Shown here: positions 32,830 through 41,547 of the stretch, in pieces
Position numbering within the stretch: position 1 is the stretch's first letter
Layout: every line of letters begins with the position of its first letter
Assembly: GCF_014084105.1 (NCBI RefSeq)
Contig: NZ_CP048289.1
Location: forward strand, 3,605,922-3,669,921
Length of the DNA stretch: 64,000 nucleotides
Direction: 5' to 3'
Origin: Streptacidiphilus sp. P02-A3a
Lineage (GTDB): Bacteria; Actinomycetota; Actinomycetes; Streptomycetales; Streptomycetaceae
Made by a program: the position numbers and the translations under genes
Notes under the pieces: model-generated
Seen by the model: the letters and a program-made list of their open reading frames with translations, nothing else
The model's database searches: none
What the model was told of the DNA's origin: nothing

Positions 32830-33777
32830 TCATGGGTTCTTGTGCACGATCCGGGTGACGGCCGTGCCGGTGTCCCGGTCGAACGGGCCCGGGCAGGGGA
32901 CTCCGAGGGCTTCGGCGAGGGCGCGGTTGTGGAGGTCGACGGTGGCTTCGAGTAGTTCGCAGAGGGCGTCCGCGGCGGCACGGCCGCGGCGCAGGCCGAT
33001 GCCTGCGACCGCGAGGGAGACCAGGAGGGCCGGCCACCATCGGATTCCCAGGGCGAGGTAGGGGAGGGCCCAGGCGGCGAGGGTGGCCGCGGTGTCGTAG
33101 GCGTCCCGCGCCGTCCGCAGCTCGGTGCGCTCCGCGTCCGGCAGGATGAGCCACAGGCGGGGCCACGCGGAGTCGAGGTCGAGGTCGTACGCGGTGAGGA
33201 CGCGCTGGTCGACGGAGCGGATGCGGTCGCCGGTCCACGTGGGGCCGACCGGTCGGCAGGGGGCGATGCGGTTCCTCGCCGTCCGCAGGCGGGCGGCGTC
33301 AGCGGCGGACGGGGTGTCGCCGAGGTGGTCGGCGGTGCCCGGCCCGCCGGTACGCAGTGCCGCGACGGTGTGGCGGGCGTGGGCCCGCAGTGCCTCCGCA
33401 TACGCCTGGTCGGCCACGGTCCAGCGGACCAGTCGGCGCTCGGTCAGGCGGCAGCGCAGCCAGCCGGTTCCCTGGGGCCAGTCTCCCTGCCACAGCAGTC
33501 GCACGCCGCCGCCGAGCGCCCGGACGGCCAGGCCGGCTCCCGCCGCCGCCAGGAGCAGCCCGGCTGTGGCGAGCAGCAGGACGCCCGGGGCGTGCGCGCC
33601 GGGCTGGCCGGCCAGGTGGTTGGCGTCGTGGTCCAGCGTGTCCAGGTCGTACCAGTCGGTCTGGCCCAGAACGCCCGCGACGCCTGCCACGGTGAGGAAG
33701 AGCAGGGCGGACGGCAGCAGTACGGCGGCCCAGCGGTCGGCCAGTCCACTGCCCAGTTCCGCGAGCATGTCGTTCAC
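32830..33777 (-). CDS. Membrane protein coupled to the CHAT-locus small protein
   Basis: The 315-residue protein starts at GTG 33777, which overlaps the upstream stop (GTGA). It has TM helices near the N-terminus (about 18-40 and 70-95), a soluble charged middle (about 110-240) and a further hydrophobic pair (about 250-275). No family is recognised. Its coupling to the 130-residue gene and its position divergent to the CHAT-TPR gene suggest a membrane partner of that system (inference). The function is unknown. Confidence 0.72.
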   Translation of the reverse strand: MNDMLAELGSGLADRWAAVLLPSALLFLTVAGVAGVLGQTDWYDLDTLDHDANHLAGQPGAHAPGVLLLATAGLLLAAAGAGLAVRALGGGVRLLWQGDWPQGTGWLRCRLTERRLVRWTVADQAYAEALRAHARHTVAALRTGGPGTADHLGDTPSAADAARLRTARNRIAPCRPVGPTWTGDRIRSVDQRVLTAYDLDLDSAWPRLWLILPDAERTELRTARDAYDTAATLAAWALPYLALGIRWWPALLVSLAVAGIGLRRGRAAADALCELLEATVDLHNRALAEALGVPCPGPFDRDTGTAVTRIVHKNP

Positions 33778-34166
33778 GTGGGAATCCGCACGGGGCGGAG
33801 CGGTTCGCGGTGCAGGGCGCAGTCGCGGTCCGCGTGCGGATCCCGGAGCAGCACGACGCGGTCGCAGCGGAGGCGGGGGCAGACGAGGGCTTCCTCGACG
33901 GGGTGGCCGTGCAGGGGCGGCAGGCCGCCGACTCCCGCGCCGCGGTTCCGCGTGCCCGGGCCGCCGCTCACTCCGCTCCGGCGCAGTACTTCTGTCAGCT
34001 CCGCGCACAGGGTCGTCACCTCGGTCTGCTCGCGCAGACCGGTGATGATCCGGTCCGCCGTCGCCAGCAGCCCGGCCCCGGCGGCGACTTCGCGGATCTC
34101 GGACAGATGCGCGCAGGTAGCGCCGAGGAACTCGGCTTCGAGGTGGTCGTCCGCGACGCCCGACAT
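33774..34166 (-). CDS. Small protein with possible CCCH zinc site, first gene of the pair
   Basis: The 130-residue protein has a helical N-terminal half (DDHLEAEFLGATCAHLSEIREVAAGAGLLATADRII), a Gly/Arg linker, and a C-terminal segment with Cys-x4-Cys then Cys-x2-His (VCPRLRCDR...DCALH) that could bind zinc. ATG 34166 follows GGGAGGAACGACC. Its stop overlaps the next start (GTGA). It is divergent from the CHAT-TPR gene across a 181-bp gap with a dyad. No homologue is recognised, and a sensor or adaptor role for the caspase-like protein is speculation. Confidence 0.7.
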   Translation of the reverse strand: MSGVADDHLEAEFLGATCAHLSEIREVAAGAGLLATADRIITGLREQTEVTTLCAELTEVLRRSGVSGGPGTRNRGAGVGGLPPLHGHPVEEALVCPRLRCDRVVLLRDPHADRDCALHREPLRPVRIPT

Positions 34167-34233
34167 GGTCGTTCCTCCCCGGTGCTGTTGGACGTTCCTC
34201 ATTGTGCCTCATCGCCCTTTGCGCACAGTATTT

Positions 34234-34253
34234 TTGACCCATACTCAGGTCAA
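34234..34253. promoter_or_regulatory. Dyad TTGACC-N8-GGTCAA between the divergent CHAT-locus genes
   Basis: Six-bp perfect arms surround an 8-nt centre. It overlaps a second small dyad (AGTAT-N9-ATACT at 34227-34245). The site lies between the pair and the CHAT-TPR gene, so one regulator could control both directions. TTGACC could also serve as a -35 box for the rightward gene. Confidence 0.45.
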
Positions 34254-34347
34254 TGGCTCTGCTCGACGGAGGTGGCCGGTGGCTCCGCTATGGGGGTTTG
34301 GTCGGGGACGGGCGCGGCGGCGTACCGGGGAGGGGTCCGCGCGCGGC

Positions 34348-37300
34348 GTGGGCCCCGGAGTATCCCCGCAGCGGGGGCCGGATCCCTTGTCCGACGTACG
34401 GGACTTGGTCGGTGTGGCGTTCGCCCTGGCGGGGCACGGTGACGTCCACCGGGCCCGCCAGTGCCTGGAGCAGGCCGCGGCGCGGACCGAGGACCCGCGG
34501 ATCCTCTTCGACATCGGCGCGTTCCACCAGCAGAGGCTCGGGGACGACGAGCGGGCGCTGGTCTGCTACCGCCGCGCGGCCGGAGCCGGTTCCGTGGACG
34601 CGATGAACAACCTGGGTGTGCTGCTCAAGAACCGGGGGCAGCAAGTGGAAGCGGAGGTGTGGCTGCGCAGGGCGGCGGTGACCGGGGACCAGGACGCGGC
34701 CGGGAACCTGGCCGGGCTCCTGCTGCTGCGCGGGAGGCGCACCGAAGCGGCCCCGTGGCTGGAGCGGGCGGCGACCGGAGGAACGCCTGACGCGATGGCC
34801 ACGCTGGCTCTGTACCTGCTCCAGGACGGTCGTGAACAGGCGGCCCGCACCTGGTTCGGGCGGGCCGCCGCGACCGGCCACCAAGGCGCCGCCGCCTTCC
34901 TACGGCGCCTGGACAGCCAGGACCACGCCCCGGCGGACAGGCCGCAGCACACCACCCCGCCCGTACCCGGGCCCGCCCGGGAGGACGACGCACCGGTGCG
35001 GATCGACCTCCAGGACCTGCTCGGTTCGGCCGAGAACGCTCAGCGTGCCTACGAGCGGCACGGCAACCCGGAGGTACTCGAACTCGCGCTCTCCCTGGTC
35101 GAGATGGTGACCTCCGGCTCCGGACCGGCCCGGGGCTCGAAGAGCGAAGCGCTCCGGCTCCGCGGTGTCCTGCTGCGACTGCGGTACGAGCGGACCCGCG
35201 ACCGCGCGGACCTGGACGCGGCGGTCACGGCCGGGCGCGCCGCGCTCGCCGACGCCGGGGCCCACGGCGCCGGGCGGGCCAACCGCCTGTCCAGCCTGTG
35301 CGCCTCCTTGCAGGAGGTCTTCGTCCTCACTGGTGACACCTCCGTCATCGAGGAGGCCGTCAGCCTGTCCCGGGAAGCACTGGAAGAGGTGTCCGCCGAC
35401 CCTGGCTTCCCCCACCGGGCGGCCCTGCTGGGCAATCTGAGCAACGCGCTGCTGCGGCTGAGCCGGGCCGACGGCCGCCCGCAGACAGTGGCCGAGGCGG
35501 TGGTCGCCGGACGCGAGGCCGTGCAGGCGACCGCGGACGGCGATCCGGCCCTGGCCGGCCTGCTGCTCAACCTCGGGACAGCTCTGGTGTTCCAGGCGGG
35601 TACGAGCAACAGCCTCGTGGCGCTGGACGAGGCCATTCGGTGCTACCGCCGGGGCCTGGCGCTGCTGCCCGAAGGCCACCCGCGGATCGGCGCGGTCCGG
35701 TCGATGGTCGAGCAGGCCCTACGCGCGCAGGAGGACCTGCGGCGCTCCACCACCGGGACGCCCGCCCCGGCGCCCGCCGACGTTTCGGTGGACGAGCTGA
35801 TGCACGCGGCCGACACCGAATACGCGGAGTACGAGAGCACCGGGGACCTCACTCGCCTGGACGCCGCCGACGCCGGCTACCGGGCCGTTCTGGACGCGGC
35901 CACGGACGACTCCGGGATCCGGGACGGGCTCATCGGCCTCGGGCTCGTCCGCTGGTCACGGACGGAACACAACGGTGACGCCGCCGAACTGGACCAGGCC
36001 ATCGAGCTGTTCCAGGCCGCCGCGGCCCGTGGCGACCAGAGCGCCCCGGAGGCGCTGATCGCGCGGTCGAACCTCGGCGGGGTGCTGCTGCTGCGCGCGA
36101 CGCGCACGGCAGCGGAGGACGACCTGCGCGAGTCCGTCAGGCTGGCCCGCGAGGTCCTGGACGCGATCGCCCCGGACAGCGTCCGGCGCGCCGGACGCCT
36201 GGACACGCTCGGGATGCGTCTCCTGTCGCTGTACCGGACCAACAATGACTCCGGCACGCTGGAGGAGGCCGAGGGGTTCACGCGTGCGGCGCTCACCGAT
36301 TCCGGCCGGACCGGCGAGCCGAGTCCCTCGATCACCGCCAATCTGGCCGAGGTGCTGAAAGAGGTCCACGTGCGGTACCCGCACACGTCGCGGGGCACGG
36401 CAGCGCTGAACGAAGCCGTCGAGCTGATCCGCGCGGCCGTCGCCGCCACCCCCCAGGGCCACCTGCTCCGTCCCCGGCTCCAGGGCAACCTGGCCGCCGC
36501 CCTGCTGCAACGGCACAGCCACCAGCAGGACGCGGACCAGGCGGATCCAGACCTCGCGGAGGCGGCCGAGGCACTCGACACCGCGATCGCGACCACCCCC
36601 GAGGGACACCCCAACCTCATCGAGCGCACGAGCCTACTCGCTCACATCCGGCACCTGCGCTACCAGCGGACCGGCGGAGCAGCGGACGCCCTGGCAGCAG
36701 TCCAGGCCGCCGAGGCCGCCCTGCGAGCCACCCCGCGAGGCCACCAGCTGCGTTCCGGCGCACTCATCCAGCTGGGACGTGCGCTGACGGGCCAGTACCT
36801 GGCGAGCGACAACATCCCCGCGCTGACCTCCGCCGTGGCCTGCTTCCAGCAGGCAACCGCAGACCCCTACGCCCCCGCGAGCCGACGAGTGGAAGCGGCG
36901 CGGCTGGGGGGATACGCCCTGATCAAGCTGGAGTCCTGGCCCGAAGCCGCCACCTGCTTCACCGCCGCCGTCGAACTCCTGCCCCGGCTGGCACCGCGAG
37001 CCCTCAGCCAGGCCGACCGCGAGCACCAACTGTCCCGGATTTCCGGTCTGGCCTCGGACGCCGCCGCCTGCGCACTCCAGGCAGGCGACCCCCCGCTCGC
37101 GGTACGACTGCTCGAACAGGGACGGGCCGTCCTGCTGTCCCAGGCCCTGGACGCCCGCACCGACATCAGCGAACTCTGCTCCCGGCACCCGGGGCTGGCC
37201 GACAGGTTCGACGCCCTGCGCGACGCTCTGGACCCCCGCGAACACCGGACGGCAAGCAACACCCGGCAGCCCGCCGCAGAGCCGCGCGCGCTGACGGCCC

Positions 37301-38514
37301 AATGGGACGAACTGATCGCCACCATCCGCCGACAGCCGGGCCTCCAGGACTTCCTCGCCCCGCCCGACCTGGACGAGCTGCTGCCCCGGATCACCCGGCA
37401 CGGCTCCGTCTCCATCGTCAACAGCAGCTACCTGCGCAGCGACGCCCTGCTGCTCACCGCCGACGGCATCCGCCTCGTCCCCCTCCCCGACCTTCGCCAG
37501 GACGAGGTCAGCCGCCATGCCGGTGCCCTACCGGGCCTGATCGGCACCGCCTTCCACGACCCGAGCGTGCTGGCCCGCCGCGACGCCCAGCGGGACGTGT
37601 CGGCGGTGTTGCGCTGGCTCTGGGACACCACCGCCGAACCCGTACTCAGCGCGCTCGGCCTCACCCGCGCCCCGGCTCCGGGAGACACCTGGCCGCGCCT
37701 GTGGTGGATGCCGACCGGGCAACTCGCCGCCCTCCCGCTGCACGCCGCGGGCCGCCACCCCCGGAGCGCCGCCGACAACGCGGGTACCCACATGGGCACC
37801 GCCGCCGACCCGGACCGGTCGGCCACGGTGCCCGACCGGGTGGTCCCCTCCTACGCCCTGACCCTCCGTGCGCTCGCCCGCGCCCACCAGCGGTCCACGG
37901 CCGGAAACCCAGTGCCGCAAGGCCCGCTCCTGGTCGCCATGCCGACCACCCCCGGCCCGGTGGCCGACCTGCCCCACGTCCGTGCCGAGACCGACGCGGT
38001 CACCGGACGCCTCCCCGGGATCCGCCTGCTGACCGGCGACCAGGCCGTGCAGCGGACCGTCCTGGCCGAACTGCCCCGGTACCGGTGGGCCCACTTCTCC
38101 TGCCATGCCACCAGCACCCCCGACCAGCCCTCAGCAGGCCGCATCCTCCTGCACGACCACGCCACGGAACCGCTGACCACAGCGGACATCGCCCGGCTGG
38201 ACCTATCGCAGGCCGAACTGGTGTACCTGTCGGCCTGCCGGACCACCCACAACCGGACGGACCTGCCCGACGAGCCGGTGCACATCACCGGATCCTTCCA
38301 CCTCGCCGGATACGCCCACGTGATCGGCACCCTGTGGGAAGTCCAGGACGAAGCCGCGGCACGGATCGCGGCAGCCTTCTACCAGGCCATCTGCCTCCCG
38401 CACGCCGACGCCGCCCGCAGCGCCCGCGCCCTGCACGCCAGCCTGCGCCGCGAACACGACCTGGCTCCGCTGCTCCCCTCGCACTGGGCGGCACACCTGC
38501 ACGTGGGGATCTGA
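34348..38514 (+). CDS. TPR-repeat protein with C-terminal CHAT (caspase-like) protease domain
   Basis: The roughly 1388-residue cytosolic protein has N-terminal Sel1/TPR-like repeats (DAMNNLGVLLKNRGQQVEAEVWLRRAA and similar), a long TPR array (about 230-920) and a C-terminal CHAT domain (about 1000-1388). The caspase-type dyad is intact: His1253 in HFSCHAT and Cys1297 in YLSACRT, followed by GSFHLAGYAHVIGTLWEV. CHAT-TPR proteins are peptidases activated by partners, including in CRISPR and conflict systems. GTG 34348 is a compromise start (GGGGAGGGG 12 nt upstream). Downstream TTG or GTG codons are alternatives. It is divergent from the coupled small pair. Confidence 0.87.
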   Translation: MGPGVSPQRGPDPLSDVRDLVGVAFALAGHGDVHRARQCLEQAAARTEDPRILFDIGAFHQQRLGDDERALVCYRRAAGAGSVDAMNNLGVLLKNRGQQVEAEVWLRRAAVTGDQDAAGNLAGLLLLRGRRTEAAPWLERAATGGTPDAMATLALYLLQDGREQAARTWFGRAAATGHQGAAAFLRRLDSQDHAPADRPQHTTPPVPGPAREDDAPVRIDLQDLLGSAENAQRAYERHGNPEVLELALSLVEMVTSGSGPARGSKSEALRLRGVLLRLRYERTRDRADLDAAVTAGRAALADAGAHGAGRANRLSSLCASLQEVFVLTGDTSVIEEAVSLSREALEEVSADPGFPHRAALLGNLSNALLRLSRADGRPQTVAEAVVAGREAVQATADGDPALAGLLLNLGTALVFQAGTSNSLVALDEAIRCYRRGLALLPEGHPRIGAVRSMVEQALRAQEDLRRSTTGTPAPAPADVSVDELMHAADTEYAEYESTGDLTRLDAADAGYRAVLDAATDDSGIRDGLIGLGLVRWSRTEHNGDAAELDQAIELFQAAAARGDQSAPEALIARSNLGGVLLLRATRTAAEDDLRESVRLAREVLDAIAPDSVRRAGRLDTLGMRLLSLYRTNNDSGTLEEAEGFTRAALTDSGRTGEPSPSITANLAEVLKEVHVRYPHTSRGTAALNEAVELIRAAVAATPQGHLLRPRLQGNLAAALLQRHSHQQDADQADPDLAEAAEALDTAIATTPEGHPNLIERTSLLAHIRHLRYQRTGGAADALAAVQAAEAALRATPRGHQLRSGALIQLGRALTGQYLASDNIPALTSAVACFQQATADPYAPASRRVEAARLGGYALIKLESWPEAATCFTAAVELLPRLAPRALSQADREHQLSRISGLASDAAACALQAGDPPLAVRLLEQGRAVLLSQALDARTDISELCSRHPGLADRFDALRDALDPREHRTASNTRQPAAEPRALTAQWDELIATIRRQPGLQDFLAPPDLDELLPRITRHGSVSIVNSSYLRSDALLLTADGIRLVPLPDLRQDEVSRHAGALPGLIGTAFHDPSVLARRDAQRDVSAVLRWLWDTTAEPVLSALGLTRAPAPGDTWPRLWWMPTGQLAALPLHAAGRHPRSAADNAGTHMGTAADPDRSATVPDRVVPSYALTLRALARAHQRSTAGNPVPQGPLLVAMPTTPGPVADLPHVRAETDAVTGRLPGIRLLTGDQAVQRTVLAELPRYRWAHFSCHATSTPDQPSAGRILLHDHATEPLTTADIARLDLSQAELVYLSACRTTHNRTDLPDEPVHITGSFHLAGYAHVIGTLWEVQDEAAARIAAAFYQAICLPHADAARSARALHASLRREHDLAPLLPSHWAAHLHVGI

Positions 38515-38640: not shown

Positions 38641-40335
38641 TCAGGAGTCGTTGGGGCGCAGTTCGCCGTGGCTGACGAGGTCGGTCGCTGTTTCGACGTC
38701 GGGTGTCATCCAGCGGTCGTCGCCGAGGGCTGCCACGTGGTCGCGGAAGCGTTGGTGGAGTTCGGTGGTGGCCTTGGCCATGGGCAGGGTGCCCATGAGG
38801 GGGCGGGCGAGGTCGACGCCTTGGTCGGCGAGGAGGAACTCGACGGCCAGGACGGTTTCGGCGCGGTCCAGGTTGTCGTCGAGGTTGCGGGCTGATGCCA
38901 TGGCCATCGTGTTGTCGTCCTCCTGGCCGAACTTCTCCGGGCGCGACAGCACGTCGGCGGGCATCGCTCGTACCTGCATCTCGGGGATCAGTGCGGCGCC
39001 GACGGTCTGGACCTGCACCATGCCGGAGTTCAGGCCGACGGGCGGGGCGGCCAGGTTGTCGGGCAGTCCGTAGCTCCACTTCGATGAGATCAGGCGGCTG
39101 GACAGCTCGTCGCCGAGGACCGCCACGGCGGTGATGTCCGCGTTGAGGGTGTCCATCGCGTGGCCGATCTGGGCGCCGTCCCAGTTGCCGCCCATCACGA
39201 ACTCGTAGGTGCCGGCGGGCTGCTTGAACAGCAGGGGGTTGGAGGTCGAGGCGTTGGCCTCGTGGCCGATGATGGTTTCCGCCTCGGTGAGGGTCTGGCG
39301 GGCGGTCGCGATGATGTGCGGGGCGGCGCGCACCGATACGGCGTCCTGGATCCGGGGGGAGGTCTCCCCGAACTGCTTGCGCCCTTGGTCGGTCATCCAC
39401 GCGCTGCCGCGGGTCAGTGCGCGCAGGCGGGCTGCTTCCGCCTCTTCGGCGGGGAAGCGCCGCTCGGCGTGGGTGCGCGCGTCCAGCGAGCTCGCCTCCG
39501 CGCGGGTCGCCTCCAGGAACAGGCCGAACGCGCCGTCGAACTCGTCGAGGAAGGTCTCGGCCCGGCTGACGGACGCGGTGTAGCGGGCGGTCAGCACGCC
39601 GCTGCCGCTGATCAGCGGAAGGGCTTCCCCCGCCTGTAGCTCGAACGTGGGCGGCAGACCGGCCTGCGCGAGGACATCGCGGGTGTCGCGTGGCGGGCCG
39701 CCGCGGAACCGCGCCTGTCCCGCGTCGCCGGTCAGGACGAGGCCGGCGGCCGCCATGGGCTGAAGGTCACCGGTACCCAGCGAGCCGATCGAGGGCATGA
39801 CGGGGGTCACCCCGGCGTTCACCAGCGCCAGCATCCGCTCCACCATCTCGGGCCGCACACCCATGTGGGCGCGGGCCATCGCGTTCGCCCGCAGCACCAG
39901 CGCCAGCCGGGCCACCCCCTCCGGGAGCTCACTGCCCGTCCCGGCCGCGTGCGAGCGCAGGATCCGACGCTGGAAGTCACGCTGCTGCTCGTCCGTCAGG
40001 GTGTGGTCCTTGAGCGGACCCAACGCCTGGTTCCAGCCGTAGACGCGCTGCCCGCTGTTCAGCGCGGCCAGGGCGCCTGCCCGGGCCTGGCGCATCCGTA
40101 CTGCGGCGGCCGGCGCCAGACGCAGCGGTCCGGACACTCCCCGCAGTACCGCCTTCATCTGGGAGACCGTCAGATGTCCGCCGTCGAGCGTCAGGCCCGA
40201 GGCGCTGGGGGAGAGCGTCGCGGACGGGGCCTGGGCCTGCGTGGGGGCCGGAGCCGCACTCGACACCAGGGCGACGGCGGTGGCCGTGACCACGGCCACC
40301 CGCACCGCACGGGGGGCAAGGGAAGAGAAGTTCAC
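38641..40335 (-). CDS. Exported aromatic-amino-acid-lyase (HAL/PAL) family protein with altered MIO motif
   Basis: The 564-residue protein has a signal peptide (about 1-35) and then the full histidine/phenylalanine ammonia-lyase fold. Catalytic Tyr (VYGWNQALG), RIQDAVSVRAAP, EANASTSNPLLF, GGNWDGAQIGHAMD and GQEDDNTMAMAS are all recognisable. The MIO-forming region reads PSIGSLGTGDLQPMA (residues 181-195). The Ala-Ser-Gly that cyclises into the prosthetic group is replaced by Gly-Thr-Gly, with one residue deleted before it. Known family members are cytosolic, so the signal peptide is also odd. It may be a non-MIO lyase/isomerase or a binding protein. A divergent 2OG oxygenase lies 297 bp away. 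Confidence 0.85.
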   Translation of the reverse strand: MNFSSLAPRAVRVAVVTATAVALVSSAAPAPTQAQAPSATLSPSASGLTLDGGHLTVSQMKAVLRGVSGPLRLAPAAAVRMRQARAGALAALNSGQRVYGWNQALGPLKDHTLTDEQQRDFQRRILRSHAAGTGSELPEGVARLALVLRANAMARAHMGVRPEMVERMLALVNAGVTPVMPSIGSLGTGDLQPMAAAGLVLTGDAGQARFRGGPPRDTRDVLAQAGLPPTFELQAGEALPLISGSGVLTARYTASVSRAETFLDEFDGAFGLFLEATRAEASSLDARTHAERRFPAEEAEAARLRALTRGSAWMTDQGRKQFGETSPRIQDAVSVRAAPHIIATARQTLTEAETIIGHEANASTSNPLLFKQPAGTYEFVMGGNWDGAQIGHAMDTLNADITAVAVLGDELSSRLISSKWSYGLPDNLAAPPVGLNSGMVQVQTVGAALIPEMQVRAMPADVLSRPEKFGQEDDNTMAMASARNLDDNLDRAETVLAVEFLLADQGVDLARPLMGTLPMAKATTELHQRFRDHVAALGDDRWMTPDVETATDLVSHGELRPNDS

Positions 40336-40632
40336 CCTACGACCATAGACATATATGATGGTTTATTAGGTTTCATTCTATTTCCTGATTTTCGTGGCGC
40401 ACCGGCCGACTCGTCGTCGAGCAGGCCGGGCGGGAACCCTGCCGGGCGGTCAGCGGTGTGCCGTGTCGGGGATCTGGCCGGAATCCGATCCTGCGGGGTT
40501 GTACGAATTCTCGGGTGCCCTTCAAGATGACACAGCGGTTTGGGCCTCTGGTCCAGACATGCCTCGCGGTCCTGCGGTAGTCGGGGGCGGGGCCCCGCAC
40601 GGTCCGATCGGCGACGGCGCAGGAGGACACGG
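40336..40632. other. Divergent promoter region of lyase-like and 2OG oxygenase genes
   Basis: The first 60 bp (40343-40395) are strikingly AT-rich and contain overlapping TATA-like boxes suited to a leftward promoter. The rest is GC-rich with no supported gene. A leftward frame at 40373-40630 has no ribosome binding site or recognisable product and is dismissed. Confidence 0.4.
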
Positions 40633-41547
40633 GTGATACCGCACGTAGAGTTACCGGGCCACGCGGCCAACTGGACCTCGAAGGACCGGGCGGCAGTCGC
40701 CGCCGGGGCTGGTGGCCACTGCCGCCTCCAAGGGTTCTTCTTCGTCCACAACCACGGCATCCCCACTGACCTGATCGGGGAGGTGTACGGGGAAACGCAG
40801 CGGTTCTACCGGCTGCCGCCGACGGAGAAGAGCCGGTACGACGCCACCGAGCAGTCCCAGTTCCTGGGGTACCGCGGGCTCGGCAGGGAACGCAGTCGCA
40901 CCCACGGCGGCACCGAGGCGTGCGAGCAGTACCGGGTCGGCAGCACCACCGACCAACTCCCCCCGCCCGTCTCTGTGGACTTCTACCACGCGCCGTTCCC
41001 CAAGTCCCTGGAGCTCTTCGCCCACTTGACCTGCCTGGCCGACGGAATCCTCGCCGCGTGCGCCCTGGACCTGGGGCTGGAGGAGAACGCGTTCACCCCC
41101 GGCCCGGGGGGAGGCCCGTTGCACCGGCTGGGCCTGAACCACTACGGTGCGAGCCACCCGTCCGCCGCCGCCTCCACCGCCGGTTATGCGATGTCGCCGC
41201 ACATCGACCTGTCCCTGGTGACGATTTTGGACCAGGACGAACCTGGTCTGGAGGTCCGCGACCGCGACGGAACGTGGCTGGAGGTCCCCACCGTCCCTGG
41301 CGCGCTGTTCGTCTTCCTCGGCGACTACGTCCAGCGATGGACCAACGGGCGGCACCGGGCGGCACCGCACCGGGTCCGGCTGGTGCACCGCGACCGGATG
41401 TCTCTCCAGTACAAGCACCGGCCGGAGTACGGCGTCGTCGTGCGGCCGCTGGACGCTCTCACCGGTCCGGGCGATCCTCCCGTATACGCACCGCTGGACA
41501 CCGGCCCCGACTACGTGGCCGTACTGAGGTCGATCCTCGGCGGATGA
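40633..41547 (+). CDS. 2-oxoglutarate/Fe(II)-dependent dioxygenase, isopenicillin-N-synthase-like
   Basis: The 304-residue enzyme has the DIOX_N pattern GFFFVHNHGIP near residue 35 and a double-stranded beta-helix core with Fe ligands HxD (SPHIDLSLVTIL) and distal His (GRHRAAPHRV). RDRMSLQY supplies the Arg-x-Ser 2OG contact. It would hydroxylate or desaturate a small substrate. GTG 40633 is chosen because AGGAGGA lies six bases upstream. Its pairing with the secreted lyase-like gene across a divergent promoter may be functional, but compartments differ, so this is only a neighbourhood hint. Confidence 0.93.
   Translation: MIPHVELPGHAANWTSKDRAAVAAGAGGHCRLQGFFFVHNHGIPTDLIGEVYGETQRFYRLPPTEKSRYDATEQSQFLGYRGLGRERSRTHGGTEACEQYRVGSTTDQLPPPVSVDFYHAPFPKSLELFAHLTCLADGILAACALDLGLEENAFTPGPGGGPLHRLGLNHYGASHPSAAASTAGYAMSPHIDLSLVTILDQDEPGLEVRDRDGTWLEVPTVPGALFVFLGDYVQRWTNGRHRAAPHRVRLVHRDRMSLQYKHRPEYGVVVRPLDALTGPGDPPVYAPLDTGPDYVAVLRSILGG

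Follow-up and report, generated by a model that had tools for sequence, protein, structure and literature searches.

A probable exported ergothionase-type lyase without the MIO triad in Streptacidiphilus sp. P02-A3a and its actinobacterial relatives

On the aromatic ammonia-lyase fold, the task of MIO is to let a primary amine depart; by general chemistry, a trimethylammonium group is readily lost, so a lyase acting on ergothioneine could dispense with MIO. One such enzyme, the ergothionase of Treponema denticola (PDB 6s7j), was reportedly described by Maurer et al. in 2019. Ergothionase is presented as an enzyme without MIO in the portion available of PMC13405746. For a Burkholderia ergothionase, PMC11089744 describes an assay that follows thiourocanate at 311 nm. 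Here, we describe a related protein encoded in the window, a stretch of 64,000 nucleotides from Streptacidiphilus sp. P02-A3a, a soil actinobacterium whose genome is a single contig of 9.33 Mb. With moderate confidence, we read this protein from its sequence as an ergothionase-type, MIO-independent trimethylamine lyase that carries a signal peptide and would act on ergothioneine outside the cytoplasm.

The window lyase and its shortened loop

The lyase gene lies on the minus strand (38641..40335) and encodes 564 amino acids from a GTG start, within an open frame of 573 codons that has no inner stops. Upstream of this GTG, the 60 bases at 40336-40395 have a high AT content by the standard of this genome and no evident ribosome-binding site at the expected distance, and the start codon is unsure. 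A profile search placed residues 55–531 in the PF00221 family (Lyase_aromatic, E 2e-112), with 376.7 bits against a curated cut-off of 27.3 and profile positions 1–465 of 466 covered. Eight NCBIfam models matched the protein, all eight under their cut-offs, and its scores fall short of those for HutH (320.6 of 539.15 bits for TIGR01225 and 337.7 of 524 bits for NF006871). The predicted model has a pLDDT of 86.4 and a pTM of 0.86, with low confidence at residues 1–44 and at loop residues 188–190. Two additional relatives of the lyase are encoded in the same genome (36% and 31% identity).

At the MIO site, the window lyase carries GSLGTGDLQPMA, where the HAL of P. putida has GSVGASGDLAPLA with its Ala-Ser-Gly triad. 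Over the core of the loop (GSLGTGDLQP versus GSVGASGDLAP), one residue fewer is present and the cyclizing Ser is absent, which confirms the Gly-Thr-Gly loop of the original prediction. The entire shortened loop, PSIGSLGTGDLQPMA (residues 181–195; 39751..39795, minus strand), replaces the MIO-forming loop. We examined 56 rows at this site: the window lyase, two close relatives found among 60 related genomes besides its own (77% and 58% identity, with loops GTGD and GIGD), and the 53 loci of the contig scan described below, L003 and L064 being one Streptacidiphilus gene (genome G023). As counted from the aligned loops, the loop is short by one residue in 55 of the 55 rows that cover it, L079 being the one without coverage, and the place of Ser143 is taken by Thr in 46 rows, Ile in 5, Ser in 3 and Ala in 1. 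HAL-type relatives in the related genomes retain the triad as Cys-Ser-Gly or Ala-Ser-Gly. The Ala/Cys-Ser-Gly triad that cyclizes to MIO in MIO-dependent lyases and aminomutases is thus missing from the window lyase, which, judged from its loop, cannot form MIO in the normal way. Ser-to-Ala replacement at the MIO serine of HAL and PAL lowers activity more than a thousandfold, according to excerpts of PMC3903478, and this makes the canonical ammonia-lyase reaction unlikely for the window lyase.

It could still be supposed that Gly-Thr-Gly or Gly-Ser-Gly cyclizes to an MIO-like group from a shifted loop, leaving an ammonia lyase, and either Thr or Ser does precede Gly in the 46 and 3 rows just mentioned. 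Against this stand the five rows with Ile and the one with Ala, residues that cannot be dehydrated, as well as the missing loop residue in every covering row, the loss of the partners Asn195 and Tyr280, and the cost of replacing the serine in HAL and PAL; we therefore consider such a cyclization very improbable. A normal HAL gene altered by sequencing error or recent decay, for which no supporting points were found, is rejected as highly improbable given the loop common to all 55 rows, the uninterrupted 573-codon frame and the dN/dS values. The latter (NG86) were 0.17, 0.19, 0.25 and 0.27 for L002, L031, L032 and L033, the closest four among the six relatives compared; the two remoter relatives L003 and L045, for which dS may be saturated, gave 0.48 and 0.45. 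The original argument against simple decay is borne out by the same data, and an error whose correction would restore Ala-Ser-Gly is very unlikely. The suggestion of a new activity without MIO survives in part: MIO cannot form normally, but ergothionase (portion available of PMC13405746; sequence of 6s7j) is already a precedent for MIO-free activity on the lyase fold. Since ergothionase is the likely model, we do not favor an entirely new activity of this kind.

Pocket residues and the proposed reaction

The putative catalytic Tyr (Tyr99) and the QD-x-S-x-R, NPL and QED motifs are present in the window lyase, as had been noted from the sequence. For numbering, we used the HAL sites that we take to be Y53, H83, A142-S143-G144, N195, Q277, Y280, R283, F329 and E414, all of which landed at the expected alignment places; Asn195 and Tyr280 are presumably the MIO partners in HAL. 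Tyr99 (40039..40041; this and the following codons on the minus strand) aligns with HAL Tyr53, which is retained in 52 of 53 subfamily rows, the exception being the cut row L036, with Asn near a contig end. Arg336 (39328..39330) aligns with HAL Arg283, retained in 53/53. The rest of the pocket, held at first to be conserved, is altered at HAL positions 63, 195, 280, 329 and 330 relative to HAL/PAL/TAL. Lys109 (40009..40011) occupies position 63. It had been overlooked that the Tyr of QDxYSxR (HAL Y280) is Val333 (39337..39339), that N195 is Ser243 (39607..39609), and that F329 and H330 align with Trp385 and Asp386, respectively.

Lys at position 63 was found in 48/48 subfamily rows and 8/8 ergothionase-type rows, compared with 0/28 HAL/TAM rows, and Ser at position 195 in the same 48/48 and 8/8, compared with Asn in 28/28. 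All 28 HAL/TAM rows, one of them a TAM chain from the PDB in which MIO appears as a single residue, carry N195, Y280, F329 and H330; in place of the Asn195 and Tyr280 of MIO enzymes, the window lyase has Ser and Val. Position 329 in the subfamily is W or Y, and position 330 is D, apart from A in L056, L063 and L067. The discriminating columns were sought with 9 HAL rows; for the control columns, the count was repeated with 28 rows. Signal peptide and pocket counts cover 53 rows, with L079, L081 and L082 omitted because their core is unreadable; the 48-row column count additionally omits L036, L064, L071, L077 and L078, which are cut, frame-shifted or duplicate. A linked pocket variant was observed in L003, L044, L048, L064 and L078, in which the Ile loop accompanies Asn in place of HAL His83, with Tyr at position 329 where readable (4/5).

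The window lyase thus has the signature of Lys63 and Ser195 shared with ergothionases, which was derived in the present analysis and not from the literature. It does not mark every MIO-free member, since the plasmid-borne Rhizobium sp. NXC14 protein at L097:2980-4485, annotated as hutH and omitted from the 8 ergothionase-type rows, combines a short Ser-less loop (GSIGAADLAPLA, GAAD) with Val63 and Val195. The gene adjoining it is annotated as a glycine betaine-type binding protein, and L097 would be another MIO-free lyase, perhaps with a different substrate.

The loss of MIO, N195 and Y280, together with the orphan state of the gene and the Asn of L036, might be taken to mean that the window lyase has lost catalysis and, once exported, uses its fold in a role other than that of an enzyme, for example in binding or scaffolding. 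This is improbable, as Tyr53 and Arg283 are so consistently retained and the same changes occur in ergothionase, which is an enzyme. In the reaction that we infer for an ergothionase, together with the role of each residue, Tyr99 would take the beta proton, the thioimidazole ring would stabilize the charge, perhaps with help from Lys109, and the carboxylate would be held by Arg336, as proposed from HAL. Trimethylamine, as a quaternary ammonium already a good leaving group, would depart without an electrophilic MIO to yield thiourocanate, and for this reason the Ala-Ser-Gly triad could be lost.

Distribution, gene context and export

The proposed search for a GTGD subfamily, run as a scan of genome contigs with two peptide patterns, yielded 53 loci with the short loop throughout the covering rows. 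Both patterns derive from the subfamily, so the loci give a minimum estimate of its taxonomic spread. All 53 loci are actinobacterial, assigned by their record titles to Streptomyces, Embleya, Streptacidiphilus, Catenuloplanes, Nonomuraea, Herbidospora, Saccharothrix, Kibdelosporangium, Amycolatopsis, Allokutzneria, Sciscionella, Nocardia, Pseudonocardia, Actinomadura and Rothia MAGs. The gene is sporadic: among 150 genomes of the family, 4 carry it (G000, G023 and G030 included), and among 197 of the class, 1 does, namely that of the window. A single column separates two branches at 90%: HAL position 280 is Val in 36/36 rows of the window's branch and Thr in 12/12 rows of the other.

Homologs of thiourocanate hydratase and thiohydantoin desulfurase occur near the lyase in 10 of the 53 loci, within the fetched stretch, and all 10 belong to the Thr280 branch; several of the remaining 43 loci are truncated at contig ends. 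No second lyase was detected in the 10 loci with the window lyase as query. Eight of them additionally carry ErtD, IclR and ErtE; by homology, these genes would make up a pathway from ergothioneine to glutamate. The best NCBIfam models of the sample neighbors are those of the ergothioneine pathway, with the cut-off passed by ErtE only (529 bits, cut-off 520), compared with 348 (440) for the desulfurase, 390 (600) for ErtD and 704 (930) for the hydratase against NF058530, the hydratase also passing the hutU cut-off (582 bits). We regard the ert-linked branch as very probably ergothionase. In L046 (Amycolatopsis suaedae), L055, L063 and L074, the order is ErtD-IclR-hydratase-desulfurase-ErtE-MFS-lyase. 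Here, the lyase is apparently exported, the ert operon is complete and an MFS carrier adjoins the lyase, which suggests that cleavage may take place outside and thiourocanate may be imported.

The window genome yielded no desulfurase, and no ert genes were found near the window lyase. Of 22 lyase genomes, 7 encode a desulfurase of at least 340 bits, and these are exactly the genomes with the cluster; the other 15, which gave no strong desulfurase, comprise 13 Val280-branch entries (0/13, with one genome probably entered twice) and the Thr280-branch L056 and L067. Among 194 class genomes, one outside the lyase set (G282, 255 bits) has a desulfurase match at E up to 1e-60, and its surroundings (19.9 kb) gave no lyase, hydratase, ErtD or ErtE match. 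A Rhizobium plasmid locus, L088, gave matches to hydratase, ErtD and ErtE, as well as to a desulfurase split into two pieces, with no lyase match in the fetched stretch.

Two contigs from MAGs, assigned to Rothia by their depositors, hold homologs of lyase, hydratase and desulfurase followed by a betaine-type ABC transporter (L073:7134-15062 and L080:5762-15086). In L073, the transporter lies downstream of the lyase and comprises an ATPase nearest ProV, two permeases and an OpuAC-type binding protein; L080 has homologous genes. By gene content, these two Rothia MAGs are possible ergothioneine users.

Around the window lyase, no conserved neighbor emerged. The divergent gene adjoining its start (40540-41547), of the 2OG-Fe(II) oxygenase/DIOX_N family, clustered alone and is absent from the other clustered lyase loci. 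The CHAT cluster is common to L039 only. Its window member is a large convergent ORF (33325-38514), probably with an overextended start, that has a C-terminal CHAT domain (148 bits) and weak or sub-threshold TPR matches; the homolog in L039 is near the lyase.

Residues 1–36 of the window lyase (40228..40335, minus strand) form a predicted Sec-type signal peptide, with cleavage guessed by rule of thumb after Ala34-Gln35-Ala36. Signal peptides were called with an in-house rule of thumb, rather than with SignalP, that considers charge, a hydrophobic stretch and an AxA motif. The rule was positive for the window lyase and for 44/53 subfamily rows, compared with 0/27 HAL/TAM-type ORFs, and lends support to the signal peptide of the original prediction. 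By branch, it was positive in 35/36 Val280 rows (L043 negative) and 5/12 Thr280 rows; L068, L070, L072, L083 and the Rothia loci were negative by this rule, and a signal peptide is apparent by eye in the Thr280-branch L067. From these features, an N-terminal export signal on the window lyase is likely.

The window genome encodes EgtD (335 bits, cut-off 290.9), so the cell probably makes ergothioneine inside, and the lyase would be outside; its own EgtD fits with keeping the lyase out of the cytoplasm. EgtD exceeds the cut-off in 34 of 38 lyase genomes, with no match in the L034 genome or in the two Rothia MAGs and only two pieces, both under the cut-off, in the L043 genome. With so wide an occurrence, EgtD tells little about export. 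As an explanation of export it was rejected: the ert-linked L068, L070, L072 and L083, for which no signal peptide was called, sit in genomes with EgtD.

Taken together, the best reading is an actinobacterial ergothionase lineage, with the window copy in an exported branch that has no ert genes. For it, we counted the short Ser-less loop with Lys63 and Ser195, common to 6s7j and absent in 28/28 HAL/TAM rows; the ert genes in 10/53 loci, the desulfurase that tracks the cluster and the betaine-type transporter in Rothia; and the one-column difference between the window's branch and the ert-linked branch, along with EgtD in the window genome. Against it, we counted the absence of a desulfurase from that genome, the closer overall similarity to HAL, the MIO-free clades that remain unjoined in the tree, the desulfurase, hydratase and ErtD homologs under their curated cut-offs, and export that does not track the absence of own ergothioneine synthesis.

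We infer that the exported and the ert-linked branches share one substrate. An unlikely, though by no means negligible, alternative is that only the Thr280 branch is ergothionase, and that the exported, orphan Val280 branch carries out the same elimination without MIO on a different betaine or thio-histidine, such as hercynine, an S-methylated compound or one resembling ovothiol. Such a division would accord with the Val/Thr split in the pocket, with Val280-branch loci free of ert genes and with the absence of a strong desulfurase from 13/13 Val280-branch genome entries. On the other hand, no column but position 280 distinguishes the branches at 90%, neither Lys63 nor Ser195 varies in either of them, and proven or likely ergothionases carry Leu at this position, which therefore tolerates change. 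An extended version of the ergothionase reading is rather unlikely: that ergothioneine-making actinobacteria export the orphan enzyme to destroy extracellular ergothioneine, depriving neighbors of a shared antioxidant and not feeding on the product, and that this lineage lost MIO independently of the Treponema/Burkholderia ergothionases, the loop, Lys63 and Ser195 being convergent.

Comparison with known lyases

Nothing we examined held a characterized protein with exactly the loop of the window lyase, nor a characterized lyase that combines a Gly-Thr-Gly loop with normal MIO. Our literature searches, limited to the accessible portions of their sources, turned up no description of an ergothionase that is exported or comes from actinobacteria. 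Within the databases and literature searched, the actinobacterial lineage, its export signal and the orphan Val280 branch, all read from sequence, appear to be new.

A tree was built from an alignment from which the loop and four pocket columns were removed, with 24 subfamily rows and 9 ergothionase-type rows, and each group formed one clade (100/100). In the best tree, the two MIO-free clades are not neighbors, with weak joining branches (69/68) and long branches flagged. When the 33 MIO-free rows were constrained to form one group, the cost was 0.22 log units (p-AU 0.49), so that joining is not rejected and a single loss of MIO cannot be told from two. The fold likewise did not separate HAL from ergothionase: VIA-align gave a tie for HAL, TAM and 6s7j (Z 40.0 to 39.2; HAL 39.5–40.0), and Foldseek with the predicted model ranked HAL first (E 7e-29) and 6s7j 23rd (E 1.5e-23), with similar TM-scores.

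Overall identity of the window lyase is about 32% to HAL and 20–28% to ergothionases, and phmmer against the PDB gave 205 bits for an aminomutase, about 200 for HAL chains and 66 for 6s7j. The P. putida HutH (PDB 1gkm, 1b8f; fold Z 39.6, about 32% identity) shares Tyr53, His83, Gln277, Arg283 and Glu414 with the window lyase, which is altered relative to it at the MIO triad and at positions 63, 195, 280, 329 and 330. The best phmmer match, the tyrosine 2,3-aminomutase of Streptomyces (PDB 2rjr, 31% identity), differs in having MIO, Asn195, Tyr280 and Ile63.

Also close are the ergothionase-type lyases L089–L095, from proteobacterial and Deinococcus plasmids, which are named by sequence and have the short loop, Lys63 and Ser195, as does the window lyase, together with Leu280; identity to the window lyase is 25–28% for L089, L091 and L093. 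Each of L089, L090 and L091 has homologs of hydratase, desulfurase, ErtD and ErtE in its vicinity (ErtD in two pieces in L091). L092–L095 were called ergothionase-type by similarity to L089, and within 8 kb of them no desulfurase and only a hydratase homolog, at L092 and L095, was found. The MIO-free lyase of Polaromonas sp. JS666 (L094:7974-9593), with Lys63 and Ser195, has as neighbors a tripartite tricarboxylate-type binding protein and an ornithine cyclodeaminase-family gene, with no ert match within 8 kb.

These comparisons would extend MIO-free catalysis on the ammonia-lyase fold from a few ergothionases to a lineage in many actinobacterial genera. The three-part signature of short loop, Lys63 and Ser195 is testable and serves proteins that NCBIfam matches only to HAL, PAL or TAM models under their cut-offs. 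The predicted export points to an extracytoplasmic ergothionase; ergothioneine degradation has been taken to imply uptake (review PMC7653990, in the part available). The ert genes of the two Rothia MAGs bear on a question posed in the portion available of PMC13405746, namely which human-associated bacteria could produce trimethylamine from ergothioneine.

Among the closest described enzymes is the T. denticola ergothionase. The window lyase has the lyase fold (Z 39.2 to 6s7j), no MIO triad and a loop one residue shorter, as found for ergothionase. The 6s7j loop, SSIGEGDI, is also one residue short with no cyclizing Ser. Both proteins have Lys63, Ser195 and an acid at position 330, have lost Tyr280, and keep Tyr53, His83, Gln277, Arg283 and Glu414; they differ in their overall sequence (20% identity) and in the Leu280 and Phe329 of 6s7j.
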